From Owenia fusiformis (taxonomy: Eukaryota > Annelida > Polychaeta > Sabellida > Oweniidae), in assembly GCA_903813345.2 (NCBI GenBank), contig CAIIXF020000012.1, forward strand, positions 12,446,932 to 12,510,931: a stretch of 64,000 bases of DNA. The letters run 5' to 3'. This document shows, in pieces, positions 20,682 through 51,859 of this stretch. The position numbers were made by a program, and so were the translations under genes. Under the pieces are notes generated by a model that searched no databases, was not told the DNA's origin, and saw only the letters and a list, made by a program, of their open reading frames with translations. Each line of letters begins with the position of its first letter. Position 1 is the first letter of the stretch.

Positions 20682-20974
20682 TGTTCTTTTCGGGCCATAT
20701 GAATCCTTATGTTAACTTCTTGGTGTGTATGCCAATTACTGATTCTGAAAAGAAAATATTGTAACATTAATAATGACAATTAAAGTTTACTAGTAATAAA
20801 AAGAAGTAAATGAATCTGGATTAACAAATAACATTCCAATTTAAAAACTGGCTAACTGAAGGATTAGCCCTACAAATGACGATGAATTTGTCATTATTAG
20901 ACTTGAAATTTTTTCAATTAAGCATCCCTCTGTGCAAGCTATCAAAAATAAGAGGCATAACATGCAAAATTTCA

Positions 20975-28335: not shown

Positions 28336-31300
28336 ATGGCTGGTATGTATAGCCTTTGGTAAGTGAATGACGATTGAGACATGAAAGACTTGAAATGGAT
28401 ATTTCATCATCCTCTTTGGTTGGACATAAGTACGGGTACTAGAGGTACTAAAACAAAGATGGAGTGCACGTACGAAAGTACAGGCGAAAATAAAACTTTG
28501 AACATTAAAATGGAATATCGGGTCAGATCGATTCATTTCCAATCGCTATTCATCGTTATTTAGTTTATTAACACACTAAAATACAGACAACGGCACTTGA
28601 ATAAACATCTGATACAAACATTCAGTGTTAGGCCTATAGAATCAATGTGTTAGTAAATAGCCCTATTATATTAGACCTAGCGATAAAAATAAATGTATAA
28701 AAATGAGAAAATACAGTTACCTAGATTTCGTTTATAATATTCGTATATTTATGATACATTATGATAGGCTTACCTTGTAGATATAGTCTACTTATTATGA
28801 GTTATTATATGATGTTATACACACTGAGTTATTTGAATATTTAATGACGATTAACCAGATTTGTCTACCCTTTACAGTTTACCAAAATAATTTGATTTCA
28901 TGGATTTTGTTTCAGAAAGATATACCTTAAAAGTAGTTGGCTTAATTATTTGGCTCCTGGCCTTAGAGTACGGATTGGCAGCTATGATACAATGCCTCTT
29001 TTCTCAATAGAACTTTGAAAGTTGAAGTTGTATTTGAACAGTTATCAACAGGGTCAAGAGGGCTGAATAACAATCTCGATATCATCTTGTTTATCGTAAC
29101 GTTTTTTTAACTGAACTACAGTAATGTTTACCTGTTCAAAGGAAGTCTAGTATTTTCCCGCTTTATAGGCATTCTAATTGAGTTTATTGAGGATCGGATA
29201 TTGAGTTTAGTACAATACTCCAATGCATTCACGTAGGATTTTATGGGATATGATAAATTGTGGGTAATATCATTTCTCTATGTATTCTGGCTTTGGTCAA
29301 GTGAATTAAATGGTATGATTGCAATAGGCGGATTAATTGGCTGTGGATGAGTTTATTTTTTTTATGATTTATCTGTTTTCCGTAACTTATTGTTGTCAAC
29401 TACTGTCATTATTTACACCTCTATTTACACATAATATGGGGAATATGAATCAAAATAACACCGTTGCTCATTATCAGTATTGAATATTTGTCATATTTTA
29501 CCACCGATTTTATATTTGTTAACATGCTCTAAAATTTTAATTTTAATATTCTTCTGGTATTTTATCACAGAGTATCTGAGGAAGAATGAGCTCAGCGATT
29601 TATTTATATCCTCTCTAAATAGACCAGTTTAAACCATGTAAATCAACGTCTCCAGAGGGGCCTCAAAACTTGGACTCTCATTTATAAGTATTATACTTTA
29701 TTTTCCAGACGAACGTAATGTCAATATGGATACAGCAAGTCAAGTGGATGATGGAATTGAAAGAGGCGAAGAACCAATGGAACAAGAAGATACAGCGCAA
29801 CCAGCAGTAGAAAAATTACCACCATTTACGAAATTAAAGGCCCGTGGAAGAAAGCTTTTGCGATGGTAAACAATATTTTCCTACTTCAATAGTAAACAAC
29901 ATGCACTACTCTAATGGATAATATTCAGAGGAAACAAATTATCTACATAAAACATTAGATAACCATACTGCAGATCATCAATCAACGATATGATACCCAT
30001 GGTGGCTACATTTACTTGGATACACATTGTGTCATTCGAAAAAAAATTAAAATCTTATAAATACCAATTTCATAGCTCTTGATCATGATAATGTTTTTAT
30101 TTAAATAAATAATTTAATTGGTGGTTGTATTATGAGTCTTTAGTGACATATTTTTCCTTCGTTTTTATATATGTTTTATAGAAATTAAAAATTCATATCA
30201 TATCATATTCATATGAGATACAGTCTGAAGAAGGAGTAAATAAAGCCTTGCGAATGGAGATTCAAATTAGAGGGGGAAAGATTTTCATTCCGTGACTTAT
30301 TTGTTTCAGGATCCCACCAGTGAAGTTCTTTGGCATGGGTGAAGATGGCTACTATTCAATCCATATAGAACACGACTGCATGAAAAAGACTACAAGATTC
30401 ATTGAAAAGAATATTCCAGGATATACGTTTCACTTTGTCCCATTTGGCCAAGATGAATCTATCCACTTATTGTTTTGTCCAGAACCAGGAAGTCCTATAC
30501 ATGGTACTCTCAAAACTTGTCCTACAGAATGTATTAAGCCACATGGTACTATTGGAGGCATTGTTGCATTGCTTGATTCAAATGGCAAAAAAGAACTATA
30601 TGCTCTAACAGCCAATCACGTTATCGAATATTGCAAACCCTGTCAAGAATACATCTCATGGACAAAACAAGACCAAAGCGATAAGATAATGATAGGTAGG
30701 CCTACAGATGTATCTTTTAGTATACCATTGAAAATGGATGATGAAAAACATGTAGATCAGTCTATATGCTGGAAAAGTGATGACACAGATCAAGCACTCG
30801 CTGATATATCATCAACATTCGAAAAATATTGGGATGATGTAAAAGAGCAAGACCAAGAACAATATGACATTGCATGCATTAAGGTAGATGACCATTGTGA
30901 TGACATCAAAAAAGAGTTTGCCCCTTGTGATAAATGTTGTTTGATTGAGTGTCAAGAAGACAAAGTAAAATTTTCTTCAACAGCAGAAAAACTAGAATCT
31001 GCAACTACCAGATCTAACAGATGTTGTGGGAAAATATTACGCACTGATGCAGGGGGTATCATTACTGTTGGGGATAAAACTGCATGGGTTGATAATATGA
31101 CGGTAATATGTTCAGTTGATGACACAGATGATCAGTTCATACAGGAAGGAGACAGTGGCTCTATAATGGTGTGTGGGAACAAAGATGACGAGGAAGGTCA
31201 TCGTCAAAATTGTTATATGGTATTTGCAGGTTTGAAAAATGCAAATAAAAAGTCCTGGAACTGTTCATCAGCATCTTTCGCCTTTTCACTGGATCGTGCA

Positions 31301-31510
31301 ATCAAGAAACTACAGGAACAGCTCAAAGAGGGTCAACGGTTGCAATTGTCATGTTGTAAGCAGGCCAAAAATGTTAACATTGGAAGGCAGGATAGCCAAA
31401 CTTCCTTTGACGTGAAAGAAGAAAAAAATGAGGAAAGCACTTGTGCCATTTCAAAATCGGGTACGAGGGGTATTAAAGTTTCCCCGAAAAATGACCTTAA
31501 GTCGATGTAA
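28336..31510 (+). CDS. Intracellular chymotrypsin-fold (PA-clan) serine protease-like protein
   Basis: Three exons: 28336-28342, 29709-29865 and 30310-31510, with phases 1 and 2, giving 454 aa. Exon 1 encodes only MA plus one base; joining gives MADERNVNMDTASQ. There is no signal peptide or membrane segment; an acidic stretch and then a basic one (KARGRKLLRW) lead into an unrecognised domain (KFFGMGEDGYYSIHIEHDC). The triad of a trypsin-like fold is visible: His158 in LTANHVIEYC, Asp241 in YDIACIKVDD and Ser337 in EGDSGSIMV. The protein is Cys-rich with CC pairs (DKCCLIEC, NRCCGK, LSCCKQ). The family is not recognised more closely. Proteolytic activity is inferred from the triad. The first Met is supported by in-phase splicing; Met at 29726 is an alternative. 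It is convergent with the receptor gene, about 210 bp apart. Confidence 0.8.
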
Positions 31511-31720: not shown

Positions 31721-34700
31721 TTATGATATAAAATTGGTTCCATTTCTAAATGATGCATTGTATGATTTGGGATCATCTGGGTCATTCAAGTCTACCAGGC
31801 CTAGTGTTGAGCCTGCAGCATCAAATCCTGCAGCATGGTGAATACCTGGAAAATACAGAATAAGACTTTAATCAAGTGCCATATGTTATAAATGCTAGCT
31901 TTATATAGTCAAATAGATGTGTTTTTACGTTTGATTAATTTGATGTACAACGCTTACAAAATGAATCTAAAATTATAATATACGAGTATATTTTGTCTGA
32001 AAATAAATTTTTGAATAAAACTATTCTTTACAATGTTTGTTTTGGAAAAATATGTAACAAAATGGTGGAAAAGATGATCAAACTATACGCTCATTCTTAT
32101 TTACTTCCAATTTTTATATGATCTGACTTTCGCACTTCAGAATGCTCCAGTTCGCAGCGCTATTGTTCAAACCACAAGGGTTGTTGAATTTGTTCTTGAT
32201 AAGTAATAATTGTATCCCTATAGACTAGCTTTATTACTACTATTACACAATAGACATCCATGATATTCAAATGATTAGTCCTCTAAAATTCTATTTTTCT
32301 GGAATATAAAAAGCAAAATATCTAAAATAATCTTGTGTTTTGACGGATCCAACTTGATCTCTTACCTGAATCTGAGCTTCCTCTTAGTGAATTCCTCGGC
32401 TCCATATACTGCTGTGGTATTGGAATGGTGGAATCTGTTGGTTTGCTTTGTTTTGTCTTCTTTGTGGTTTTAGCGGCTCCTTTTGGGCTAGTTGCTGTTA
32501 GTGCTAACACCTTCGGTAGAAACATCATACCGAATATCAATGACGTATTTACAGTGTTCCCTATACATATAGCCGGAGTTTCGTATTCTCCATCGGCTAG
32601 CATATATACAGGTATCCATGCTAGCATGATAACTATTGTTCCTAGGGATGTCACACAAATGTACATAGCTTCCTGTTGGAACTCGATCGACTTCCTAGCT
32701 TTGATGGCAAACGCGAGTGAGAGGACTACCAGAACGTATATATAACACAATGATAGCACTAAGGATAGTTTTGGATTGACACATCTCCAGATTGGTGTGT
32801 ATAAAGGGTACTCCTCATCTTGTGTTTCATTAACGAGGTACCACTCTACCTCTGGAGGTTTCAGGATAAGCCATTCAACAACAAGGACCAACTCTAGGGC
32901 TATAAGAACACACGTGGCAACAATCTGGCTAGGTCCACTTATAAATTGAGGCTTGTTACTAGAATTCATCTTGTTTGAAAATCTGTTGATCCGGACTATT
33001 TTCACTAATAGGCTTGAGAAGATCATCGAGTAGAAGAAGCCGATTCCAAAGCGTTTCATTCCACACGTGATAGGAGAGGATGAGATCATCCATATGAAGT
33101 TCATTAAATATAGCAGCACTATACCTAAAAGTATTATGATACTTAGCGCTCCATTCGAACCAAGCACCACTGGATGGTTTTGTTTAAGCATAAACAGCAT
33201 CATGGTGATGAAGGCTAACACAATTCCTAATATGGACAACGTGATGACGAGAAGTCCCCATATAGTCTCGTGAGATTCAAATTTGATTGGGACATTAGTG
33301 ACATCTAGTGGTTGTTCCTTCCAGTTGCAATGTTTACAGACTCCAGGGCATTCAGAAGTGTGCATCTTACGTCTACCCTTAGAGTCATACATGCGTATAA
33401 GGCTTTCGTTGAAGCTGAAGATTCCACCACTCCAGTAACCAATCTGAAAGAATAAAAGATCAGTAATATTTACAATGGACGAATTTCAATACAAGGTGGG
33501 CCTAGAAATGTTACTTATACGGATTTCAATGTGATATATAAAGGGTAATAATTTCTTGGCCCAGCCTGCATGTTCAGAAATTCGTAATAAAGCAGATTAG
33601 ACTTTTGATTATAATTTCTACTCCCTCCGTTGATTAACGCGTTGATGAGGTCGAATGAAAGCACATCTATTATTACCTGCTTCATTTGATCTGAGTTATC
33701 GGGCTGATAATTTAAAATCTTATACTCTCCGAGGCCATCTCCATTCCATGTAAACCTAAACCTCTTTCCATTGACGCTCTTGAAGGTCGCCCTGTGTATG
33801 TATTCATATGGCATGGCTGTATCGTTTGGCTGTATAGCACTGCAATGGGGAAGTTTCGTAGATCCACATTCCTCCTGGAGCATAGCTGTGATACCTTTAG
33901 CAAAGGCGAATACAGCGTTGATGGTATTGGCAACGTATTCATTCTGTTTGAAGTTACTATCTGTTAATGACTCCAGTCCGTTACAAGCCTGGTTGAATTT
34001 TCCCCTATGTCCGAGGTTACATTGGAAATGATGCTCCCAGAATTCAGTCAACCATGGATTGTTAGGGTCACTGTTTGGTTTGAGGTTCATGAAGAATTTA
34101 TCAAAGTCTGGATCATATCCCCAATCAGGAACAACATTTATGGCTCCTCTGCTAACGGTCTCTAATCCAGCAGTTACTGTTTTAAAAACTGTTTCATCAA
34201 GCGTGGATATCCACACAAATCGTCCCAATATTTGTTTGCTGTTAACTGCATCTAGCAATAGACGGAACTGATGGGGTTCCAGGAAGACAATCACACCCCT
34301 TGCTCCTTCCGCTTTATTCAAAGCATCTACGTGTATTTGGTAGTCTTGGTTGGTGTCATCAACAACAGTAACTTTAGCAAGGCATATCCCTTCAAACTCC
34401 AATGATTTCTGCAGCCATTCTATGGCTATCATATTCTCCGTTGTGTTATGATATATTGTTGATACATATGTCCAACCTAGTTCCTTTATTACCTCAACTG
34501 TCGCTTCAACTATGGACCTATCTGATGGTATAGTTCTTAGGAACAATGGATGGCTAGCCCTGTTTGATAAATCATCGGACGTCGATGACGGGCTTATCTG
34601 TACCAGGTTGTATCCCTTCTGGTTGGCTTTGCTTAGGGAGGCTGATACGTCACTCCTAGTGTCCCCGAGGAATGCAAAGACGTATGTAAGAATGGGCAAC

Positions 34701-37700
34701 TCAGGGGGCTTGTTCATGAGCAGTAGATTTCTATCAAACGCTTGGAACACTTGTCTGCCGTAGTCCGGGTTAGAGCAGGTATCAAAAGCCATCATCCCCA
34801 GGGAGATATTAGGCAGCAAATGAAGCTCGTTGTTTATCTTATCAATGGCATACTTGAACGCCATATACTGTTGGAACCCAACGTCGGACACGAAATCCCC
34901 GCATGGATTAGACGGCGACTCTCCTTTGGAATGGATACTGAAATACGCTGGAAGTGTCACCCTTTCGTAATGTATATCAAAGTCAATATCCATCAACTCC
35001 ACGGAGGAACATCCACACGTGTCACGAGTGTTTTGACATTTTGATATGACCTCAGACATAGGAAATTCCAGTTGTTTTAGGTCGTACATCATGGCTTCGT
35101 CATCCTTTAAGCTGAGATACCCGTTATACCAGTATCCAATCTGAAGTACAAAAATATTGTTATGTATAGGATTAGAAAGTGCAAGGGCAACATTTGAACA
35201 ACATTAACACGTCATGTAATTGCGTTTTCAATTTCAATGTTACGTGTTTTCATTGGGCTAATTATAATCTTTGTTAGTTGATTTGTTATCAGTGAGCTTT
35301 TAAACTGTAAACTTAACAAGGAATTTCTTTCTTTACATTCTTCATACTACTTAGCTCTACTTACCTTCTTATAATCAAAGATATCCGCACTTTTTGAAAC
35401 AACCTTGTAATTGTATATATCATATCTTGGAACTCCATTTCCAAGAACATCGAACGCTACTGATAAACCTGTTGTAGAGTTGAACGTATTGTTTCTGATA
35501 AAGTCTCTTAGTTCAATGAGATGAGTTTGTGCCTCTGGGCAGAAGTTTTCAAATTCACAATATGTTTTAATTAAATTGTCCAAGCCTCTAGCGTATGCCA
35601 TTACAGAGTCGACGACGTAAACAGCCTTTGTTGACAATGGTATGACCTTGTTTTCTAAGGTAAAACTAATTGAGCATGGGTTGCTATATTGTTTTGCTGA
35701 GTCATCAGAAATATAGCAGCGAAATATATGTTGCCAATATTCTTTGAACCATGGGTTTCTGAGGTTTGTCTCAGGTCGAAGTGTCCGAAAATGGTCCATT
35801 AATGCTGGGTATTCTGGGAGGTTGAAGTCCAACGTGATTGCTCCCGAAGCTATTTCTTTTACACCGTCGACAATATGTTTCTGTGTGCCCCAATAGTCTG
35901 CTGCAAGCCACACCAAATCGTTTCCAATACTCGTGATCTGTTTAGTTTCTAATATGGCACGAGTCATTGTATCTGTGGTGAACATAACAACTACTCGTGA
36001 TTTGTTAAAATTCCCGGGGAAATAAAAATGAAGAATGTTACTCATAACGGTTTCGTTCTTTGCGAAGTATTCCTCCATCTTGATCTGCGTTGCGACACAT
36101 ATGCCTTCATTTGTGGCGATCCTTATAAACTCTCGCATGCCCGAGACTCCATAAGCATTATCTGAGAACACAGCATGGACGTAAGACCATCCAAAGTTCT
36201 TTATGATATCAACAAGTGCTTTAGCCTGGGATTTATCTGAACCAACAGTCCTCAGAAAATGCGGATATTTAATAATGTCATCCAGCCTTGAACTTGAAGA
36301 AGAAGGCGATATCTGTGTTACCTTATGGACTGAGAGTAACTCAGCTAACTGTAAAGAAGCGTCTGATGTCGGGGCACCAATCACACCCGATAGTTTTGAC
36401 TCGTGGTTCATTGAAACAATATCATCAAATTCTTTGTTTATAATTGCTTTACTAAGTCTAACTGTCCTTTCTGGGCTTCTACACCCATCAAATATCACTG
36501 TTCCTAGTTTGATATTTGGCAAAATGTCTTGGTCATTATTGACTAAGTCTAAAGCATAGAGCATTGCTTCGGTGTCCTGAATTCCCTGTTCATCGAGCAT
36601 TTCGCTACACTCTTCCCCTTTAGAAGAGATTTCATCCCCAACTGATCCCGACATGTGGATATCAAATATTCCTGCTAGAAGAACGTCTCCGTCTGATAGA
36701 ATTCGCCTGAAAAAAAAACAAGTTTATTTTTATGGATATTGATCAATATGTAATGAGGAAACGCCACAAAGGGCTCCACTTGAAAACAATATTGGCTAAT
36801 GCGATTCCTTGAAACTATATGGAGCATTTTAAACTAATAAAAACGTTAATTGCGAGCTATTTTCTTGCCACGTATAGAAATTGTTTCCTTGGTGGGATTT
36901 GTTATTTATTTTTTAAAAACACATTGAGAGTTGTATATGCCTGACGTAGCAAAACTGTGATACATATGTATAAACTGTCCATCCCATATATAAACAGTGT
37001 CAGAGATTGTTGCGTGTTTACAATCACCGTTGTCTCTTTTTAATCAAAGCAAATTAACCACAGACTGATATGTATTTAATCATGTAGCTGTTTTTACTGA
37101 CATACATTACTATGATTACAGTGACCCTGATGGTCCATTCACATGCAATTAATCATTACTAGTTTTTGATTGGATTTGCCAAAGGGGTAGCTTCATCTAC
37201 CTGTTGTCAAATTTACTATTGGAGCAGGTACACAGGCCTTTGCATTGTGATGGAGGTAGCATTGCCATCTCATTGCCATCTTGGTACATCCTTATGGTAC
37301 TATTCAGCACTAATCCACGTGAAGGCGTCCAGGAGCCAATCTGTTATAAAGAAACCGAATCGGAACATTACATGTTAGCAAGTATGATACTAGCAAGCAT
37401 AATCGTAAGCCAAACAGTGTTCAACTTCTTCTTTCTGAATATTCCACAGTCCTGAGTTTAGAAGATGCAATAAACCATGACAATAAAGTCTAAAAGTCTT
37501 AAAGACAAATTTCTGGACAAGAAGCTTTTGAAGTTAAATGATAAAGACGTTCAGATCTTTGAGTGATTTTACATCTACTCACAAAAGGAAAGACAACATT
37601 AAAAAAGTACAGCATGACACATTAAGCATACTAGACACAAGAACTAAAGCTCCAATACCCAATAGCAAGCTTATGTTCGATGCTGTCAAAAAGAGCGGCC

Positions 37701-40700
37701 ACTCACCAATTTCACCTCATAAAGCTTTTCCGTAGTTTGGACATTTTTAATCCTGTACTGAACCTCTCTAAGATCACCCTTCTCATCAAATTTAATATTC
37801 TGCCCGCTTAGACCTACAAACTCCACTGTCTTCAAATATGCTAACAGTCTTTGTGGAGCTATATTTACAAAATCCTTGCATAATCCAGAGGCATTTGCTC
37901 CACAAATGTCAGTGTGTGCTTTCTTCAGCGCATGCGCATATGTGTAAACAGCCGTGACTGTTTGCGACACATACTGATGTTGGTGGTACTCCGCTGTGTG
38001 GTTTCTATGGTGAGATATGGTACAGCTAACATTTACCAAACAATCGTACTGTTGTTCCCAGTAGTCCTTAAACCACGGGTTAGTAATATGAACCCTGGGT
38101 CTCCGACCGACAAACTTGTAATAAAATTCCGTTAGTTCACCGGAATATTCTTCGATTGTCACTATCCCACTGATGGTTGATTTAATATCGTGGTAGCTAA
38201 ATGAATCCTCGAAACCGAAAGGAGTTATCCATTGGAGTCTTGTTAATACACTAAGTGATTTGCTCTTCTGCTCCACCATTTTGAAAAGCTTGAACGTTGT
38301 CTCGGGGTTTGTTAACATAACTACCCCTGTTACACCTGAAATACAAATATATCGAATAAACTTCAATTTAAGTTCTGTTGTCATGACTATTTAACATGAA
38401 AATAAATGATCTGTATATTTTAAGAGGATTTTTATTTAATTAGATATAAGTAGAATACCGTCTGTAAAATGCTATACATTTGTTTAGTGACAACTGTATT
38501 CAAACGATTAGTTTTACAGTTTTACAATAAGTCTACATTTTTACATTTGAGAAAAAAATAAGAACTATAGAACTGTAGAATATAGTCACTGTAGTGTGTC
38601 AATTAGTTCCTACCTTGGTTGACTATGGTCGACAGTTCCTCAACAGCCTCCTCAATCTCATCATCGGTAAGATCATTAACCTCAACAGTCTTATGGATGC
38701 ATATATCACGAGATCCCGCAGTTTTCATCAGCTGATCCATGACGTAACGAGAGTTGGAATCCATATCAACGACAACCGCAACACCTTGCCATTGAATGGC
38801 TGTGATAATGCTGATTATGACCTGAAAGGTAAACCAGCAATAAATGCAATCTGTAAACATTTGAAAGGACAAATGCCAAACGGGGAACGTTCAACAGGTT
38901 ATTAGGAAACAAACGCCCAGTGACCTAGCCAGGAAGAAAAAGCGATGAGACGAAGAAATATATGTCCAAACCTTGCGTTTACCTGGCCATAGAAGAACAC
39001 GATGATAACCCTTACGTGATGAGAATATTCACAATTGAATCAAAAAATGATGGTTTGAGATTAAAAATCAATAAAAGTTATACAATTGATTTACAAGTCG
39101 TCATTGTTAGAGGTATGTTTCTCAAACACCCTTGGCAAAAGCTGGCTAGGGGTCTAAGTTCATTAGTTCAGGTTTTGATGCGATACATCAGTTTTTCTGT
39201 GAATACGTAATTACTAATTGTACGTTTCTTTTCAATGCTTTTAAAAATACTCGTTCTTCCAAGGGAAAAATCAATACCCGGTGATTTCAGCGGGAAGTAG
39301 CGTTTCGTTCAGTGGATGAGCTGCGCGCGCACGCATAAATGTGATTATCAATATTATTTAGGGGAGGGATATTCAAGCTTATTTTCGTCATAGGCGCGAC
39401 CCAGGGCTGTTGTCTTAAGGACATTTCGTTGAAAATTAGCCATTCGGCTGATAATTTGTAAGAGTTTGCTATCTTATAATGTATAACTGTTATTCAGACA
39501 CATATTTTGACACGATCCTGTTGGAATTAAGCTTTGAACCGAGAGATATTCACGATTGATATGCACGTTTTTGATTGTGCCATTGCTTTTCCATTGCACA
39601 ATCCATGTATTGATAGAAGTAACAATAATGCCGATTGTTTTACCTTCAATACATGGCGGATTAACTACATATCGGTCTATTAATTACCATTTTGTGCCCT
39701 AAATAGTTTTATATTTCCCGATCACGGCCTGGAGCCTATATGCTTGTGAATTGGTGGGGCTGGCAGGGCCACCAATCCCCTGGCCCCGCCCATCCTTTAT
39801 TCTACTTCCCAGTTATTATAATTTATGCTGTAACATTCAGACTTTGCTGGAAAACAATAGGAATTATTTTTCTTGCCAATCAATCGTGAATCACAATCAA
39901 AATTTCAGAAAGGATCAATCAGGCAATCGTCCAAAATCCAAATCAAGTTATGGTATGAGGTTCCATATCCATCCGCCAAAAGGTATGACCCCTATATAGT
40001 CCATTTAAAAACTCGTGGTATTGTTCTAAATAACGCCATAGTTGGCTTCTAGGGTACCTAGTATGCCACTATTTGGTATCAAAATAAAGAGGAGGAGTTC
40101 AACTTTTATTTGAATTACGAAAATAGCGATGTAGGTCAAAAATAGTTCCGACATGAGCATGTTTACTACGCGTTTGCCCATCATATCAGAATTGAGGAAG
40201 TGGTAGCAAACGCGAGTCACAATAAATGGACGCTGATATCTCAAAAAGTAACCTGACTCCCTATAATTTGATGTAGATCAATCGAACCCCTATATGAACA
40301 GGTACATTTTGATATATAACACTATGGGGGGTAAGCGTTTTATAGTTGGTCACGAACGCCATATGTGCAAAGTATTGTTATGAATTTTCGAATTTGGTGT
40401 TGGATTACGGTACTCATACCTTATAACATTATATGATATTCAGCAAGAAGTCCGGTAGAAATATAGAATATCTATACATCAAAGCTGAAAGTTAAAAGCT
40501 AATCTGTCAATTTTCTGTCTGCAAAAGAACGTTTACATTTGACACAATAAAAGACCGAAGCTTTGAAATCTAGGATTCCCCAGGAAAATATGACGTCATA
40601 CTAATTAGCATAAGGATTTCCCTAGTGGTCTGGGTCGAGCATCGTCCGAAAACACAATCCGATAAATACATGCTAATTTCTAAGGAGATGGGAAGTGTAT

Positions 40701-42909
40701 GGCGTGTTTATCGATTTTGTTTAAAGATTTAATCAATTATCAAATTGTTTAAGTGGATAAAGTGGTCACACTTGCTTCAATTCATAGCGTAATCGACGGA
40801 TAGAAACTGCACCGAATTCCCGATATCCTACCCCGTATTATGTAGGCTATAACCACAGTGACCTGCAGATGGCGCTATCACAAACAAGTACTGCACGAAC
40901 CGATAAATTCCCGGGTATTGTAACGCCCTTGGTTCTTCCTTATTTGTTCAGAATTCAGCTATTGAATTCAAAAGTCCACACACGGGAATTTCGCGTCATA
41001 ATTATTCCTCCGCTTGGTGCGCTGTTGTGCATAGCAACGTCCTATGCAACGTGTATAAACATCGCGCGGACGTATAAGTACAACCCGTCAGTTTTTCATG
41101 TTTGCAATGAAATTTTCTATTCAGATAGGTGTTTTAAACTATGATTTTCTTTCATAATATATATTGTTAAATAGGCATGATACATATCATCGTGTTTCTA
41201 AAGAATTGCTTATTTTAATCCTGTTTATTTCAAGTTGATAGGTTCAATATTAGTAAAGTTACGGCTTCACTATGGAGGGGCAATTTCTTCGTAAACTAAA
41301 AACCGCATCGTCAGCAAAGATTTGACGAAAACACAACATTTTTGCGCCGGTGGCATTTTTTCATTTATGGATGAATCTTTATCAAATTTGAAACACGTTT
41401 GAGCTAAATATACAAATTGTGTCTTGGCCGAGGCGGAATTTTAAAATTCAAATTACAATTAGAGAAAAATAGCTAACCAGTGTCAAGTTTTATCGCTGAT
41501 TTTCGAAAAAAATATGATGTTATTCCTTATACAGTTGGAAGAAAACGAATTGTTTAAACTGCTCAGGATAAAAATATATTAATCCAGATACATGCAAGCT
41601 TTATATACAAATCATTACATACGTTAAAGGCCATCATCAACTACTAGAAAATCGTGTGTAAAGTTGGACAATGTTTGACCCGAATTGACCGGCAAAATGG
41701 CCGCGCGCTCGCAGCGCCTCTAGCGGAGGAATAATTATGACGCGAAATTCCCGGGTGTGGTCTCGATATTTACCTCGGATATATGGTCAAGTCTAGGTAC
41801 CACACTTAGACTGTATGTACTCCCAGTCGCCTTGATTGAACGAGGGATATGACCTAACGCCACTTGTGCTACATTTGCGTCATTCAGAAGGTTACCAACT
41901 GCTTTCGTTTCATCACCATACATTGGTCCAATCACACCTACAGAAATCGGATATTTAAGTCAGAACGATACCAAAATGAAAAAATGATATATTTGGAAAT
42001 CAATCAACGCTGCAATTTATATCTGTATCTACTTTAGTAAAATGACGTATCGCGATGATTCTAGGGGTTCGCAAGAGTAGAGTAACACAAAAATCATAAC
42101 GTAATACACTTACCAGGAAATATTTTATCTGCGGGGCAAATATCGCCATCACTGTCAGTTAGGTTCTGCCTTGAGGCAAGATAGGACATCGCTCTTCGAA
42201 GAGCAACGTCTTTATTGCCACATGTATCAAATGCCTCAAGACCTGAAATTGAAAGACGACCAAATGATTCAAAGATATTATTTTCTTGTACTACTTTGAA
42301 TATATTACTCGTTCAACTGCAAAAGCTTCTTTGATGTCGATGTTCCCTCACAACGTCACTCTCCCTCGAGTATCTCGCCGTGCTTTATTTCAGAAACAAA
42401 TAAGTCAAACATCGTCTGGATATCTTCATTTGACCATCGATGTTGAAATTTTGTATGTCAGAAACCATAGTTATTTCTTTAACTTTAAGTTGTGTGATAA
42501 CTTAATGACAGTTGTAATGTGATTCTTTATCTGGTGGGGAGGGGGGGGGGGGATTGTGGTGACTGGCATGGGATTGAGGGGGTTTAATCAATAATCAAGT
42601 CGTCAGAAAGTAATTCATTGCGCAAACTCAAATACCGCGAGTACATGGAACATACCGAATTTCACTCCTCTGATGAAGTTGGCGTCATTCAGTTTCTTCA
42701 CGGCGAACATGGCAGCTTCCAGACGTTGAATAGAGCTTGGGTTGATCACCCCTGAGCACTCCGTGCCACCGATTCCCTTTTCGTGCATGTTGAACAGGGC
42801 CCCGATGATGACGTCACCAGGAACGCTAGTCTTTAGAGGTTGTTGGCAGGTCTGACTGTATGAGCTGGGAACGTGTACGACTAAGATGACGAGCAGTTGC
42901 AGGATTTGT
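31721..42909 (-). CDS. Class C GPCR with three tandem Venus-flytrap domains (mGluR-like), 5' end missing
   Basis: Ten exons on minus: 42909-42656, 42242-42114, 41937-41774, 38821-38614, 38335-37707, 37340-37201, 36706-35365, 35140-33677, 33443-32366 and 31845-31721. Junction phases 1,1,0,1,0,2,0,0,1 all agree, giving 1,844 residues. A hydrophobic signal-like segment (QILQLLVILVV) precedes flytrap 1 (GDVIIGALFNMHEKG). Each flytrap carries the mGluR hallmark NPW(F/L)..(Y/F)W......C and is followed by a linker starting IGSW or IGYW with a short Cys cluster. The last linker enters an mGluR-type 7TM (TM6 AWIPVYM, TM7 end FLPKV) and a basic cytoplasmic tail. It should be a plasma-membrane receptor; the ligand is unknown. 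The start-Met exon, which must end in phase 2, was not found. Single-transcript status is inferred from phase continuity and the absence of intervening 7TM or signal exons. Confidence 0.85.
32366..33443 (-). CDS. Receptor exon 9: linker 3 and seven-helix domain
   Basis: Begins IGYWSGGIFSFNESL, with the shortened Cys cluster ECPGVCKHCNW in place of the nine-cysteine domain of mGluRs. Seven hydrophobic helices follow, from about WGLLVITLSILGIV to SLIFGMMFLPKVLAL. A Cys at the start of TM3 (ITCGMKRFG) and one in loop 2 (IWRCVNPK) can form the conserved disulfide. The tail is Lys/Thr-rich (KTTKKTKQSK). Confidence 0.9.
33677..35140 (-). CDS. Receptor exon 8: linker 2 plus flytrap 3
   Basis: A 1,464-nt exon with phase 0 at both ends. 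It starts IGYWYNGYLSLKDDEA, has the Cys group TRDTCGCSS, then a full flytrap (VTLPAYFSIHSKGE, FDTCSNPDYG, QISPSSTSDDLSN, GWTYVSTIY, NPWLTEFWEHHFQC) and ends ILNYQPDNSDQMKQ. The donor is GTAATA. Symmetric phase 0-0 makes this module easy to duplicate or skip without a frameshift. Confidence 0.88.
35365..36706 (-). CDS. Receptor exon 7: flytrap 2 in a single exon
   Basis: One 1,342-nt exon holds a whole Venus-flytrap module. It runs from GDVLLAGIFDIHMSG through the lobe-1 loop QISPSSSSSRLDD, hinge strand GWSYVHAVFSDNAYG and NPWFKEYWQHIFRC to YDIYNYKVV. The Ser-rich loop and the AYG..G motif resemble the alpha-amino-acid site of metabotropic glutamate receptors, so ligand binding is plausible here. 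Confidence 0.88.
37201..38821 (-). CDS. Receptor exons 4-6: rest of flytrap 1 and linker 1
   Basis: Exons 38821-38614, 38335-37707 and 37340-37201. Exon 4 continues the domain (IITAIQWQGVAVVVD). Exon 5 has lobe 2 and NPWFKDYWEQQYDC. The 46-codon exon 6 (IGSWTPSRGLVLNSTIRMY, then QCKGLCTCS) is the linker, and it ends in phase 2, exactly as required by exon 7 (giving FDNR-RILSDGDVLLAG). This exon is too short to stand out as an open frame. Confidence 0.83.
40975..41760. mobile_element. ~785-bp inverted-repeat transposon in receptor intron 3
   Basis: The left end CCACACACGGGAATTTCGCG and, as complement, the right end CCACACCCGGGAATTTCGCG extend inward through TCATAATTATTCCTCCGCT. Its right end is about 13 bp from the donor of receptor exon 3 (exon ends at 41774 on minus). 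No transposase frame and no clear target duplication were seen. Confidence 0.75.
41774..42909 (-). CDS. Receptor exons 1-3: signal segment and start of flytrap 1
   Basis: Exons 42909-42656, 42242-42114 and 41937-41774 encode the leader, GDVIIGALFNMHEKG, the FDTCGNKDVALRRAM helix and GVIGPMYGDETKAVGNLL. These match lobe 1 of metabotropic receptors. Where glutamate receptors have a Ser/Thr-rich amino-acid-binding loop, this module has VALGHIPRSIK. Flytrap 1 may therefore have lost amino-acid binding. An 8-bp-shy transposon end lies close to the donor of exon 3. Confidence 0.85.
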
Positions 42910-44824
42910 CTGAAACTGATTTTACACCAAACATCGTTAAAATACTACAAGAAGTTGCACCCAATGTAACAATTAAATCAAAGAATTATAAGAATCAAAA
43001 GAGGATCATGGATGAACTCATTATTTCATAAGGCAACGTTTCTACGTATGCGCCTATATAACAGACATAGTTACCATTGTATGCTTTTCTCCATGATTCG
43101 TTTATGATAATATCTTATCCAAGAATTTGAATAGTTACGTTTCCGATGACATTGATGATCAAAGCTTGTGTGCCAATTATCATGACCAGCGTTGTGTTCA
43201 TCTAATCCCGTTTTATTAATAATCTAGTGCTATATCTCATGTATCTGGTCAGATTAATGTCCATAAATTCCAATTCATCTCCAAGTGGTCCAATCGGTTT
43301 ATATAAAAACAGAGTTATGAATTCTAATTTGCTTGTGAAATTGAAAATTGAACGTTTTAATTCAAACTTGGCTTCTGGGCATTTTATATAATGACAACGA
43401 TACATCAAGCAATATTCACATAGTGAGTTAAAACCCAAACACTGTCATCATCATTTATTGGGTTTTAATTGATGTACACCTGCAGGCAAATTTGAAAATT
43501 GACTGCATTTTTGGAAAATCAAATGAACTTTTTAAATGTTATTTTCGAAGCTTGACGACCACATTCGGTCAACGAAGTATCCAAACAATAATCCCAATGC
43601 ACGCGTCTCGATCGTACGTGATGTAATAAGTGCATGTTTGTTTCTTTCCAATTTGCGTCTTATTACACTGAACGAAACTCAAACTACCGCACCTGTTAAT
43701 TCCTAATAGTTGTGAGATTTTCTGGTTATTTGTAAACTTTTTTGTTTTTATTTTCAAACACAGGGCTGATTGATACACTTTGCATCATTCTCAAAAATAA
43801 CTAAGAATGAAATTTGGTTTGGTTTTAAATGCTAGTATACAGAGGACTTCCTACTCTACCAAATATTAATCATATTCTTGTGAAGTAAAGCAATGAAACA
43901 CACCAGCAGTGCCGTAACACACCTGTCCCGTGTCAAGCGAAAAATCATGAAAACATGAAAGCATTTTATAGAAACATTCGCAAATGTTAAAACTTTATAC
44001 TCATTAATTTCAATGACACAGTACTGGTTCATACAAACTTCTTTAAAAATAATTTATGTGAGTGTCCCATTTTGGCCCACCCTGTACTGGACGAAAATTC
44101 AAAAAATTTTAATCGAAAAATGGCCCTATAGCTAATTTATTTTCAAGTTTAATTGAAGATTTAGAGGTCAGGGTTTCTGTTCTTTATGATCTGCAAACAA
44201 TAGTTTGAAAAATAATATTCCCTGCCCTACGCCTCTTGGATATCGCAAATATTTTTTACTTTTCATTTTTCATTTCAAGGCCTGGAATAAAAGATTATTT
44301 ATTTAGTGTATGAAATTAATATTTATCAAAAGAGCCAAAGTATATCCCGGGAATTCAAAAAAGCACCGAAAGAAATTCCCGACGACGCTCACCTCAGCGG
44401 GAGATATATATATACCACCAGCTCACCTCAGATATCGATTGTATTCCCGCATGTTATTTACCTTACACTACTAAGTATGGGATAAGATTTTTTAATTTAG
44501 CCCTCGTATTCCTTGTCATGATACCGGAAGTTATCGTCTGCTTCCGGTACGTCAACAGGTCAGTGCACGTTGTTTAAAATTATCCTAAAACGTGAAGTTA
44601 ACAAGTAAAAGTATATACATATATTGAGCCAATATTTACTTAATTATGTTGGTCTCTCTTGGCTGTGTATAGTCGGGTGTATAGTGAAAACTGGCGTTTC
44701 TAGGCCTACCACCGAAAAGAACTGACTGAATTGAGATTTGGCTCGGGATGCCAGTCGGGTCCTTGCTATGAAATGATTCTTAGGTATATTTCATAGCTCC
44801 CTTTCGATCCTTTTATTAGCATAA
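42910..44824. other. Upstream flank of the receptor gene
   Basis: The exon with the receptor's initiator Met should lie here or further right. One open start (MNTTLVMIIGTQ on minus at about 43203) precedes a GTAACT donor in phase 0. It would fit only if a different acceptor (TTCTTGTAG at about 42950) were used, so it is not asserted. No other gene is seen. Confidence 0.3.
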
Positions 44825-45318
44825 GTACTTTAACCACGCCCCATTCTCAACACATCGTACAAACGGAACTGAACGATGTGCTTTTGGCGCTTTTGTAATT
44901 AAGTACTCACTTATTTCAATGTTTTGACAGAATATAGGCCTTTCACCCTCATAAAAACATCGCCCATGCTATGCTATGCAGAGATACATGTATACGTACC
45001 TCTACTAGAGGGAGTCCTCTAGTATCGCTTCGTCTCAACATTTTTTCTGAGCACGATCTCTTCTCAAATCAGATAGAAAGCACGACATTTTCTTGAAAAA
45101 TATTGTTATTTTTCACAAAATCCATCATATTTCCGACATCTTGCTGAGTTATAACTTATATCGTCATACAATAGTGACTTAATTAGTAATTACTAATAAA
45201 ATTATTATACATCATCCAGAGTTCAGGCACATTATTTTCCAAAACAAATGGAAGAATTCGTAGAAATTAACTATAATAGAAAGTGAACGACGTGAATGTG
45301 TGTACGACGTACACATTA

Positions 45319-45446
45319 GGGAGTTTATTGCAATGATTTTCACAACCTAAACGCGAACAGAAAATATTCAAGCGATGCATTTTGTATGGGCGATTGGTCA
45401 TACGTATAGGTTGGCGTTACGATTTTTTATGCAAGCTTAAACTCAC
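45319..45446. mobile_element. 128-bp TA-flanked MITE, second copy
   Basis: Same family and same length as 5274-5401 but in opposite orientation, starting GGGAGTTTATTGCAATG and ending GCAAGCTTAAACTCAC, flanked by TA. It is inserted in the loop of the surrounding foldback element. Confidence 0.8.
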
Positions 45447-45937
45447 TATTTTTGCTCATATGTCCTTCTAAGTTACAAAATATGTATTTGATAAGATTAA
45501 TACGGATTTTCTATATTCAATGAAAATATGAATATGTTTTATTTTAGTAAGGCATGGTTAAAAACTATTTAAGAATAAACCATTGGACCATCCTGTACAA
45601 AAAATTAACATTGGTTTTTAGTGCGAAAATAATTATGACTCTTGGGGAATATTTTGTGTCATGATTTGGAGCTCTTGTCAAGATGGATGTCCATCTATCC
45701 CAATATATCGTCAAACCAAGATAATCATCAAAATTACAAAGCATCCTTGGTCTAAGGATATTTCACTTCTTACCAATAGCATCAAAGCCCGCTCTCGAAG
45801 GATGTCACCAAGTAATTTGTCAAGAGTTTAAACGACATCAACTCTCAATAATTACGTCCCGACGGCGTTCAAGATGATTAATCACTACTGTGACGGTCCA
45901 CAGATGCATTTTTGATCGAGCTGAATGTAAAAATATT

Positions 45938-46056
45938 GGGTTTTCAGTCAGGGGGTGCGATTTTGGCAAAAACAAGAGATTTGTTGCATCAATTTTTGTA
46001 AAATTCAAAACAAATCTCTTGTTTATGCCAAAGTCGTACCCCTGACTGAAAACCCC
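45938..46056. repeat. 119-bp hairpin
   Basis: GGGTTTTCAGTCAGGGGGTG and, at the other side, its near complement CCCCTGACTGAAAACCCC, with ACAAGAGATTTG/CAAATCTCTTGT further in. Related CTTTCAGTCAGGGGGGTG sequence appears at about 46924, so this is a dispersed small element. Confidence 0.65.
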
Positions 46057-46870
46057 ATTTTTGCCGATTACCCCTCACCCTGACTGAAAGCTTGCTACTT
46101 TGGTATACATAACCATCCAATGGATGGGATCCTACCGCAGCTTGACCGATGCAGTGATTCGAATATACTTTTTCATGTCTTTAACCCTATGAAATCTTAA
46201 AACTTTTGGACGCTCCTCGAATTTTCATAGATTTTTGGACGAAGTAAAACTCTTAAAATGCGCATTATTGGAGTTACTCTCGAATATGCCCACTGGACGT
46301 TTATTTGAAAGAACTCCTTGGGCCTTTATTAAGAGGGGAACATTTTTCCAAGGTGATGGGTGATTATTAAAGCTAAGAGGGGAAAAGATAATCAATAAAA
46401 GCACTCAAACACATTTCAATGGCCTTGTTGAATGACCTGTACGTGGTGCAAGCCTTTCACATCGTACACTTTTCAACTAAAATTAATTTCTCTGAATTTT
46501 TCTATTTATTTTGGAAACTGAAGTGTCTGGGTGATGTGTAGTGATTTTATTAATAGTTAACTCACTATTACATTATGATTACATAGCTCAATGTTAATGA
46601 TGGATTTTGTGAAAAATGACAATTATGTTCAAGAAATTGCCGTGCTATCTAGAAGATTTGAGAACTTCTAGATCATGTTCAGAAAAAATATTGAGACGTA
46701 GTGATACAAGAGGCATCTCTGCTTAGCATGGGTGATGTTTCTATGAGGAAGAAAGGCTCATATTCTGACAAAAAACGTTGGAATAAATGAGTAGTTGCAA
46801 ACTTGGCCCCAAAAGCACGTCGTCCACTTCCGTTTGTATGATGTGTTGAGAATGGGGCGTGTTAACGTAG

Positions 46871-47911
46871 TTTGTCACCGCAATGGCCTGGACATACGAT
46901 AAAGTTGACAGGTGCGTAGCCAGCTTTCAGTCAGGGGGGTGGTGCGATTGTGTCATAAACAAGCCAAAAAATAAGATTTATTTTGAATTTTACAAAAATT
47001 GATGCAACTTCCTTCAAAATTGAGCTAAAAGCTTCAAATAAAAAGCATTTTAAAGCTCTTTTATTTTTATTGGTTATGGGGGGGGGGGGGTGCGATTATC
47101 GCACCCCCTGGGTACGCCCATGGTTGACATTCGAATTCTGTCATTCTACTAAAGACATGCGTGTTGATATCAACAACATTTAATGTGTATCATTTTATTG
47201 CTACAACGGGCCGGGTAATGTGTTTAAACTATTGCTCACTTTTTGAACTACTTTGATGTTTTTTGGGGAAAAAGAAGGTTTTTGCGGCAAACATAAACTC
47301 TACATTAACTACATAACATCTAATCAATGTATCAGTATAATTTCGAAAGTTGTTTGGGATTTATTTTTTCAAAAAGGTTGACTTTCGAAAAAAGTTATTG
47401 GTCTCTTAATTTTTAAATATTTGAATTTCCCGCCATTTTAGCTGCAAAAAGTTCAAAATAAATGGCCTAAATAAGTTGAAAATAAGTGTTTATCATGCAC
47501 ACCTCTAATATTTCTGCCCCATTGGTTTCAATGAGAACTAAAGTTTTAAAGTATTTTTCTCTGGACCACTTTTCTGCGCTTCATATTCTTCAACCAATTT
47601 TCTTAAGTTTTCAACATAAAAGAGATTAGGATGTAATGCTATCCAGTGGTATAAATTATTGCTTGTATGTGACAACAAAAAATTATTTGAAATAAGTTCA
47701 CAATTTGCTAACATACGATAAGACAACATAAGCTGAAGTGGTTTAAAAATATGGGGCCTTTACGACTGGTCGTAAAATATAAAAGTTTATTGCGTACGTA
47801 GAGCTAACCCTGACCCGGGAAACCAATCCCATTTGTGCTTTATCTAAACTTGAAAGCGTTATTTTTTCATAACACTTAAAGTCCATTTCCTGATTTCACT
47901 GTTCTCACACT
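46871..47911. other. Intergenic, no gene seen
   Basis: Contains a fragment ending in GTACGCCCATGG and a run of 12 G residues near 47080. The remainder is AT-rich with no supported exon. Confidence 0.3.
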
Positions 47912-48420
47912 GGAATAGCCTGACTACGGTAAAGTCAGATACCGTTGTCACAAATGGCGGACATAACCGTCGCTTCAATTAGATTTTCATGAACTGTATG
48001 TTTAATAGAGCACCTAGACTAAATTCCTTTGGAACAACAAGCAATCAAAGTGTCTTAATACTCATTGTACAGTTAATAATGTTCTACCATCGAAATAAAG
48101 TCTTTAATTTTACCGACCAAAATGAGATACGGGACAACGGACACTGTAATTACCATATGCCGTTGTCTTTCTAAATTACCCAAATTCAGATTCCGTTGTC
48201 ATTGACGATATCGAAGACGCTATATTGTGGCGATTCATGACCCAATCTGATAGAAAATGGGATTTCATATGATACATTATCACAAGAGCTCAATGCATGC
48301 ACATAATTAGCGATGATAAAATCCCATAAAATGAGGACCAAGTGATTAGACAGTTGAAGCGACGGTTATGTCCGCCATTTGTGACAACGGTATCTGACTT
48401 TACCGTAGTCAGGCTATTCC
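47912..48420. mobile_element. ~509-bp transposon with 67-bp inverted ends
   Basis: Ends GGAATAGCCTGACTACGG and the exact complement, continuing perfectly through AAAGTCAGATACCGTTGTCA and ATGGCGGACATAACCGTCGC. The near-perfect arms suggest recent activity. The interior has CCGTTGTC motifs in both orientations and no coding frame. No target duplication was recognised. Confidence 0.82.
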
Positions 48421-48429
48421 GATGTGGTT

Positions 48430-49400
48430 CTGTGAGGTCAGTAAAACATAAAAATTACAAATCGGGAGACCATTGTGGTAAAATATATTCATACTGTACA
48501 CAAATGACATTATACAAATATTTAATTCTATTGAGGTGAATACCTGTGTATCTTTCACAAGTGACATTCCACGAAGCCCGAAGGGCTAGTGGAATATCAT
48601 CTTGTGAAAGTGTCACAGGTATTCACCGAAAATAGAATTAAATATTTGTTTTATTATATCACTGTCATAACATCTTCTATAATTAAATAAGTCATATGTT
48701 AACATCGAAATACATTTATATTTCTTCTAACAATATAACAATAAATATCAACTACCAAATTGTATAGTCAATAAATATCAACTCCCAAATTGTAGTATTT
48801 TAATTTAAGGTTTCATGTTAACATTATAATTAATTGTAACATTGCAATGGGTCAATGAAAATGGAACCATTGTGTTCATACTCATAGTATTGGCCATGAG
48901 GGAAACAGGGTTGGGAATGTTTTTCAAATGTCCATTCTGAGATGACTCCTTGTTATCACTGCCATTAACACTTGTATGATATGTATGTATAAGTCATTAC
49001 CGTTGAATATCATTTGATACTCACCGGAAGTCACGTCACGTTGAATATCGCTAGTTATTTTTTAGTCACGTGTAGGACATGGACCAATAAGAGAGTGAGG
49101 AATATGACAGTAATATAATAATTGTACATATTTCAGATTACTTAGATTTTTGTACAATAAGCCCATGGGCTCTTGTAATGAAAGGAGTTTCAGCCATGTT
49201 AATCTTTTCGAAATAACATGACAGAGAAGCATCAAAATATTAGAGGCCACACATTTTATTAGCCAAACTAAAAGCAATTCAAGATATACAAATTTAGATG
49301 AACAATATAAACAGATATTCTGAACATTATTGTAAAATGGTATTTTGATTTCTTATTTTTTAGGGTTTACTGACGCAATAAAACAGTGAAATGGACTATA
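48430..49400. mobile_element. Old copy of the 391-bp MITE, split by later insertion
   Basis: A left-arm remnant at about 48437-48510 (GGGAGACCATTGTGGTAAAA) and the core and right arm at about 49110-49400 (TTTCAGCCATGTTAATCTTT, AACAGTGAAATGGACTA) together correspond to 23114-23504. About 600 bp of other sequence, including the hairpin at 48514-48649, separates them. Confidence 0.6.
48514..48649. repeat. 136-bp hairpin element
   Basis: Arms of about 50 bp: ACAAATATTTAATTCTATTG, GAATACCTGTG and TTTCACAAG are matched in complement by CTTGTGAAAG, CACAGGTATTC and AATAGAATTAAATATTTGT. The loop region CGAAGCCCGAAGGGCT is itself palindromic. Confidence 0.75.
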
Positions 49401-50100
49401 CTTAGACTCTTGAAATACATTTCGATAATAGACAGTTGATAAAAATAGAATTAAATTAAATGTTAGACTGCTATGAAATGTTAATGCTGAAATAATCAAT
49501 CACAATAGACTCGTATTAACAGTTCGAATCATTAATTGAAAATATAAACTAGTGGTACAAATGTTTTATGATATAAATTGTTTGAGTTATTGGTTATTAA
49601 TAACGCATAAGCATAAACGGTTGATGTTTTCCACTGGTATGTTGATTTGATACATTCAGACAATAGGTTTATAGCTTAACTAGCTTAATACATCATTATT
49701 GGCTTGGCTTTGTCTGTTCATAATTGCGTATTTACCGTTTAGATCGTGTGGCCTTGCCGTTCGCCACCATGTGAATTCTTTGGGGCAGACCCCGGGGCAT
49801 GGTATGAATACACGATGGGCAGAACAAATAGTTTACAGCAAGATATCCCCCATCACACCAAACACTAGCCACACGGTGGTGGCGAACGGTGAGTCAACAC
49901 GCTTTCAATAACGGGAAAAATACGTGTTTTTCAAAGGACCAGCATTGATAAACAGCATTGATATTATTCAAAATGAAATCGACTGTAATCAATGATTCCC
50001 AGCCCTCAGAAATTTAAAAATTAAAAATACCTGGGTGTTAATCCATAGATAATTCTAGCAAATGAGAAATATCTTTTTGGAGAGCGGGGTAAGACGAAGT
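49401..50100. other. Intergenic, dispersed repeat
   Basis: No gene is seen. About 49985-50085 (TGATTCCCAGCCCTC, ATACCTGGGTGTTAATCCAT) matches about 58698-58785, so it is a dispersed repeat. Confidence 0.4.
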
Positions 50101-50990: not shown

Positions 50991-51109
50991 TTTGGAAACG
51001 GGTTATATTATTTAATATATATTGAATAGAAAACGATTGAAGATGTATATCTTGTCAACTATTTTTTTTATTATGTTATGCGTATACATGTCATTGCCAC
51101 AAGTTGTGT

Positions 51110-51600
51110 GAAGTTTTTGTGGGATAACAATGAGCTGTGTGGTGTTTTTGTGTGATGACCATGAGCTGTGTGGTGTTTTTGTGTGATGACCATGAGCTGT
51201 GTGGTGTTTTTGTGCGATGACCATGAGCTGTGTGGTGTTTTTGTGCGATGACCATGAGCTGTGTGGTGTTTTTGTGCGATGACCATGAGCTGTGTGGTGT
51301 TTTGGTGCGATGACCATGAGCTGTGTGGTGTTTTTGTGCGATGACCATGAGCTGTGTGGTGTTTTTGTGCGATGACCATGAGCTGTGTGGTGTTTTGGTG
51401 CGATGACCATGAGCTGTGTGGTGTTTTTGTGCGATGACCATGAGCTGTGTGGTGTTTTTGTGCGATGACCATGAGCTGTGTGGTGTTTTTGTGCGATGAC
51501 CATGAGCTGTGTGGTGTTTTTGTGCGATGACCATGAGCTGTGTGGTGTTTTGGTGCGATGACCATGAGCTGTGTGAGGTTTTTGTGCGATGAACAGCATG
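51110..51600. repeat. 31-bp minisatellite, about 16 copies
   Basis: The unit GATGACCATGAGCTGTGTGG plus TGTTTTTGTGC repeats nearly perfectly. Because 31 is not a multiple of 3 and the unit lacks stops on minus, all three minus frames are open and encode the same 31-residue repeat. This is an arithmetic effect, not evidence of a gene. Confidence 0.92.
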
Positions 51601-51859
51601 AAATCTATTCAAAATGTAGCATACAACTAGCTAGCATAGTAATTCCCTAAAAAGATTCATTGAGCAGGTTACTTAATCCATAACAAATAAGTGAAAACAC
51701 ACGACCAGAATACAACTTTTGACTTTGACATTTAAATGAAAGAATTAACTAGACTTTGGAAATTGAACGAAGTTCAATTTCAGACTCCAGATCTAGACTT
51801 TTTTAAGCCCAGTCATCTAAAATAAGCCGAGTCATCCAGAATAAGCGGAGTCATCCAGA

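Follow-up and report, generated by a model that had tools for sequence, protein, structure and literature searches.

The minus strand of the window, the whole 64,000-nucleotide stretch of Owenia fusiformis DNA that was analysed (contig CAIIXF020000012.1), carries between positions 42909 and 31721 ten exons which, spliced by script, yield a single open reading frame, 1,843 codons long and closed by a stop codon. All nine introns (413, 176, 2952, 278, 366, 494, 224, 233, and 520 bases, from the first to the ninth) have GT...AG borders and matching phases. The initial annotation had proposed ten minus-strand exons with phases agreeing at nine junctions, and every one of them was recovered in place. 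Exon 1 (42656..42909) encodes the end of a putative signal peptide (QILQLLVILVVHVPSSYSQ) and the start of a Venus-flytrap domain, flytrap 1; it opens at a splice acceptor and has no ATG. Flytrap 1 continues through exon 2 (42114..42242), which includes a loop cysteine (DICPADK), exon 3 (41774..41937) and exon 4 (38614..38821), the latter preceded by the 2,952-base intron, and ends in exon 5 (37707..38335), a PF01094 piece terminating in phase 0. Exon 6 (37201..37340) starts in phase 0 and encodes linker 1, with the motif IGSW and three cysteines, and exon 7 (35365..36706), ending in phase 0, encodes flytrap 2 with a complete amino-acid motif. Exon 8 (33677..35140), in phase 0 at both ends, comprises 488 codons, with linker 2 and flytrap 3 in the same frame. 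Linker 3 and the seven-helix domain (7TM) are encoded by exon 9 (32366..33443), which has a phase-0 start, and the end of the cytoplasmic tail and the stop codon by exon 10 (31721..31845).

The stop-to-stop frames of exons 8, 7, and 9 extend over 562, 458, and 387 codons. With the measured stop frequency of 0.062, the expected numbers of chance runs that long in the window are 2e-12, 1.5e-9, and 1.4e-7, respectively, which excludes a chance origin of these frames. Since position 42909 is an acceptor (tttcag, followed by A) and exon 1 has no in-frame ATG (frame 42615-42944), a start exon is required upstream. The hydrophobic run of exon 1 (KD10 maximum 3.33) includes the stretch ILQLLVILVVHV, which resembles a signal-peptide core; the peptide would begin in that upstream exon. 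A scan of positions 42910-49500 for a start exon revealed nothing convincing, including its best candidate at 43923-44032.

Several other features were noted in the window. Beside the receptor, a single 404-codon frame at 30296-31510 on the plus strand has no Pfam family above the cut-off; it contains the words TANH and GDSGS, which we take to resemble the His and Ser motifs of trypsin-fold peptidases. A minus-strand frame at 20172-20711 contains an RF-1 (peptide release factor) domain (41.3 bits, cut-off 35) with the GGQ motif and probably encodes a mitochondrial rescue factor. The 655-codon plus-strand frame at 10759-12726, with a YADD word, appears by eye to be a non-LTR reverse transcriptase. 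At 51012-51630 (minus strand) a short tandem repeat leaves three frames open (HTKTPHSSWSSHKN and its shifts) and is probably a minisatellite rather than a gene. Elsewhere in the genome, mGluR-like receptors form clusters (L009-L012 on C3 at 32.02-32.05 Mb; L017, L020, and L021 on C1 at 49.88-49.90 Mb; L014 and L019 on C9 at 6.65-6.66 Mb). These clustered receptors are lineage-expanded, carry the flytrap, the cysteine-rich domain and the first helices in one frame, and could, as a prediction, be chemosensory. The Hox cluster, located on C1 in agreement with the chromosome 1 position given for O. fusiformis (PMC9977687), includes a Lox5-like gene with the KLTGP motif and two Lox2/Lox4-like genes. 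These are spiralian features and make the echinoderms, hemichordates and amphioxus suggested for comparison improbable sources of the DNA.

The spliced protein matched PF01094 (ANF_receptor) in three stretches (whole-protein E 1.9e-147), all N-terminal to a single match to PF00003 (7tm_3; E 5.2e-44) that spans positions 4-251 of 251 and scores 151.2 bits against a cut-off of 33.5. A weaker, overlapping periplasmic-binding-protein match was also present in the same Pfam scan. The three ANF_receptor matches and one 7tm_3 match bear out the order originally read from the exons, in which flytrap and linker alternate three times before the 7TM. The linkers had been described as opening with IG(S/Y)W, and this motif was found three times, at residues 462, 956, and 1444, linker 1 starting with IGSW and linkers 2 and 3 with IGYW. 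The NPW signature ascribed to each flytrap is likewise present in all three (residues 337, 825, and 1316), but its W-to-C spacing is five residues, not six. At the genome level, the architecture of three flytraps plus a 7TM is real. The cysteine-rich NCD3G domain, located between flytrap and 7TM in the mGluR/CaSR/T1R group, was found neither by Pfam in the whole protein nor, at E values up to 10, in linker 1, 2, or 3; one linker from another gene of the genome, used as a control, scored 7.4e-13. Each linker contains three cysteines, which would suffice for one internal bond and one bond to the lower flytrap lobe.

Exon 8 is open throughout, and linker 2, continuing flytrap 2, is followed in its frame by flytrap 3. 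Because both linker and flytrap 3 lie inside this exon, the domain order there is independent of splicing, and it is the reverse of the usual flytrap-linker-7TM order. The three linkers begin at the same codon and in the same phase. No in-frame ATG lies between the start of exon 7, 8, or 9 and the next upstream stop. A scan for signal-peptide exons detected none in introns 7 and 8 (224 and 233 bases); in intron 6 (494 bases) it detected a single candidate, whose donor is poor. The frame of exon 8, the missing in-frame ATGs and the equal linker starts argue for one chain, and the splice sites and frames lead us to infer a single mRNA containing all the exons. The proposal that a single receptor-like gene encodes three flytraps together with one 7TM gains support from the ATG and intron 6-8 scans, in which the poor-donor candidate is all that was found by way of separate signal peptides for flytraps 2 and 3.

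Each of the three repeats has a phase-0 intron immediately preceding IG[SY]W (exon borders 5/6, 7/8, and 8/9), so that two frame-neutral cassettes, each consisting of a linker and a flytrap, can be delimited: exons 6 and 7 with 494 codons, and exon 8 with 488 codons. The border between flytrap and cysteine-rich domain is intronless in all 22 other mGluR-type loci of the genome for which the flytrap end and the cysteine-rich domain both fell inside the fetched piece (L002-L015, L017-L023, and L030); this set includes many close paralogues, and most of its members were chosen for closely spaced flytrap and 7TM matches. Five intron-rich mGluR loci (L024-L028) are uninformative on the border intron, since the exon found in them begins past the border. 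The phase-0 intron is shared by locus L016 (C5, from 6794217 down to about 6792402, minus strand), where it precedes IGKY. This gene comprises a one-exon flytrap, the intron and a short tail; by eye, it has a signal peptide and its tail ends in a hydrophobic GPI-signal-like stretch. No 7tm_3 match was found nearby. Its flytrap holds the five residues of the amino-acid motif (with E for D318), and L016 may, as a prediction, be a cell-surface or shed amino-acid-binding protein.

In the flytrap tree, L016 groups with flytrap 2 (support 96/90), as it does in smaller sets (91/81, 88/96, and 84/91); by this placement it is the nearest relative of flytrap 2 in the genome. The three flytraps and L016 form one side of a weakly supported branch (59/64), flytraps 1 and 3 are long branches, and an exclusive clade of the three flytraps is neither demonstrated nor rejected (p-AU 0.066). 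It is the intron, more than the tree, that speaks for the putative common descent of the cassettes.

The three flytraps differ in their relation to known receptors and in their predicted binding sites. Their best matches among solved structures are mGlu7 for flytrap 1 (8e-34), mGlu5 for flytrap 2 (3e-67), and mGlu4 for flytrap 3 (7e-53). Residues S165, T188, D208, Y236, and D318 (mGlu1 numbers), which we take to form the amino-acid backbone motif of mGluRs, were located by motif on mGlu5, with S/T and D/E substitutions allowed. Flytrap 2 has all five (S for T188), flytrap 3 has three and flytrap 1 none; the motif is complete in 20 of the 20 other flytraps of the genome in which the five positions are covered (L001 and L003-L021). 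Two more residues, R78 and K409, hold the glutamate side chain in mGluRs, according to the available portion of a published study (PMC6307864). The R78 position is occupied by R in the motif-less flytrap 1, by D in flytrap 2 and by Q in flytrap 3. The K409 column, in a gappy stretch of the alignment, has K in flytrap 2 and Y in flytraps 1 and 3; provided that the alignment is correct, the K argues against a loss of glutamate binding by flytrap 2. These residue roles are carried over from mGluRs. Six cysteine columns, including the lower-lobe cysteine, are common to all three flytraps, and a cysteine in the upper-lobe inter-subunit loop occurs in flytrap 1 only. It can be equated, by analogy, with the cysteine of the inter-VFT disulfide in mGlu2/mGlu3 (C121/C127, as given in the accessible text of PMC10543438), in that the loop matches while the column differs. 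A structure predicted for exon 8, for which exon 7 served as the sole companion row, was set aside because of its pLDDT of 34.

Among solved structures, mGlu3 is closest to the 7TM (E 1e-36, against 2e-8 for GABA-B1). In a ten-row tree the genome's mGluR 7TMs cluster with mGlu3 (88/91); the domain is not part of this cluster and adjoins L029, a long-branch receptor without a flytrap. In the alignment, both cysteines of the extracellular loops are retained, as are the lysine of TM3 and the glutamate of TM6; the TM6 tryptophan of IIWLAF is replaced by M. Given the roles that these residues presumably have in class C receptors, the retained ones, set against the lost tryptophan, provide hints bearing on the predicted dimerisation and G-protein coupling. 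The domain can safely be called mGluR-related; its placement inside a known mGluR class would not be safe.

Genome-wide profile searches yielded at least 111 ANF matches, a lower bound with 115 of 190 candidates scored, and 72 7tm_3 matches. Thirty-two of the latter reach the domain start, three of them without an upstream ANF match. More than one flytrap's worth of sequence upstream of 7tm_3 was found in one of these 32, the triple-flytrap gene, by a count that could miss flytraps divided among small exons; four other genes show overlaps of up to 9 positions that seem to be edge effects. A whole-protein search of the genome revealed no close paralogue: matches outside the locus have at most 39% identity, and the best-scoring one 31%. 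To our knowledge, flytrap-bearing class C receptors carry one flytrap per chain, and their activation is understood as flytrap closure relayed between two chains. No class C receptor with the present build was found among the matches listed from the open-licence literature, although gene predictions may exist elsewhere, and within that scope the result agrees with the initial annotation, whose author knew of no described animal receptor with this architecture. Tandem flytraps were found, among the same matches, only in bacterial sensors, such as CdgH (in the part of PMC5431781 available), and trypanosome cyclases, outside GPCRs, and the accessible sections of a 2025 survey of animal ANF-domain builds do not mention repeats (PMC12716839). 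As far as searched, the build is undescribed and new within a known receptor class.

The likeness to mGluRs lies in the best solved-structure matches of the flytraps and the 7TM, but mGluRs have one flytrap, whereas the receptor described here has three and no NCD3G match. In GABA-B, a binding and a non-binding flytrap cooperate and are located on two chains, whereas here all flytraps are on one chain. Like this receptor, GABA-B has a flytrap without NCD3G (PMC12716839, in its available sections); the sequence is, however, far closer to mGlu, as the E values of the 7TM indicate, and GABA-B is absent from the best 60 matches listed for each flytrap. Class IV mGluRs, as described in the available portion of PMC6307864, keep the backbone-binding residues and have an acidic residue in place of Arg78, as in flytrap 2; the K in the gappy K409 column of flytrap 2 argues against full likeness. 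EvgS, a bacterial histidine kinase drawn as a dimer with two consecutive flytraps per chain, and the likewise tandem-flytrap histidine kinase BvgS cited with it (both from the accessible part of PMC5573083), differ in their kinase output and in having two flytraps rather than three. Most trypanosome receptor-type adenylate cyclases are said, in the available text of PMC6027212, to carry two ectodomain flytraps, and unlike the present receptor they have one transmembrane segment and a cyclase output. Venus kinase receptors, invertebrate receptors that re-use the class C flytrap, combine one flytrap with a tyrosine kinase (excerpts of PMC3703292 and PMC4026697), and no kinase domain was detected in the Pfam scan of the triple-flytrap protein.

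Taken from the sequence, the reading that we consider somewhat the better bet is a single-chain mGluR-related receptor that arose by cassette insertion or copying, in which flytrap 2 would sense, flytrap 1 dimerise and flytrap 3 relay. The chain would consist of a signal peptide, flytrap 1, flytrap 2 and flytrap 3, each flytrap followed by a short linker, and the 7TM. A frame-neutral cassette of linker and flytrap would have been inserted, or tandemly copied, into a phase-0 intron between flytrap and linker. Flytrap 2 is predicted to bind a ligand of the amino-acid type; the replacement of Arg78 by Asp makes glutamate an improbable one. Flytrap 1 would have lost amino-acid binding and provide a distal, possibly disulfide-linked, dimer contact. 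When flytrap 2 closes, flytrap 3, with its site half-decayed, would transmit this movement to the 7TM by way of a mini-linker, in which one retained disulfide to the lower flytrap lobe may replace the full cysteine-rich domain. This predicted division of labour agrees with the residues observed. Against the explanation as a whole stand the start exon not found upstream in the scan of 42910-49500, the p-AU of 0.066 for an exclusive three-flytrap clade, the 59/64 support of the branch shared with L016 and the long branches of flytraps 1 and 3, as well as the position of the 7TM outside the mGluR cluster and its M in place of the TM6 tryptophan.

Phase 0 applies both to the ends of exons 5, 7, and 8 and to the starts of exons 6, 8, and 9, and the joins 5-9, 5-8-9, and 5-6-7-9 are therefore all in frame. 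One gene could accordingly have cassettes 6+7 and 8 spliced in or out, with products of one or two flytraps being usual and the triple form rare. We regard this as unlikely: the frame-preserving joins permit skipping without requiring it, and the shortest form would seat the motif-less flytrap 1 directly on the 7TM. A shorter product is also conceivable at intron 6, which carries four polyA-like words; exon 6 left unspliced runs into a stop, and together these features make a short secreted flytrap 1 product possible. The same polyA-like words and the candidate signal exon of intron 6, along with the existence in this genome of a lone flytrap gene with a signal peptide and a GPI-like tail (L016, by eye), could point to two or three adjacent genes misread as one, with secreted or anchored flytrap proteins encoded upstream of a flytrap 3-7TM receptor. 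This arrangement is distinctly improbable, given that linker 2, which continues flytrap 2, shares the frame of exon 8 with flytrap 3, that exons 7, 8, and 9 have no in-frame ATG after the preceding stop, that the donor of the intron 6 candidate is poor and no candidate was found in introns 7 and 8, and that ATGs internal to the exons would yield no signal peptide.

The motif residues gone from flytraps 1 and 3, the long branches and the start exon not found in the scan of 42910-49500 might instead indicate gene decay, in which an mGluR-like receptor whose parts were duplicated is losing its function. There is little room for such decay in 1,843 codons without a stop or frameshift and nine splice-site pairs that are all intact; each flytrap also retains its six cysteine columns and flytrap 2 its complete motif, and we consider this explanation highly improbable.

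If the triple-flytrap protein is a single-chain receptor, its three flytraps, one of them apparently amino-acid-competent, offer a system in which domain swaps would separate ligand binding, dimer contact and relay. It also raises the question of how a signal passes across stacked flytraps without a cysteine-rich domain. As the initial annotation foresaw, a dimer would then display six flytraps, and the relay to the 7TM may differ from that of known receptors. More tentatively, the receptor may be modular, with cassettes setting the number of flytraps, and the binding and non-binding flytraps on the same chain may act as a built-in pseudo-heterodimer. If so, one polypeptide would do what takes GABA-B two subunits, and cassette splicing could yield one-, two-, and three-flytrap receptors from a single gene. 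The gene would show that class C receptors can grow through phase-0 cassette insertion.
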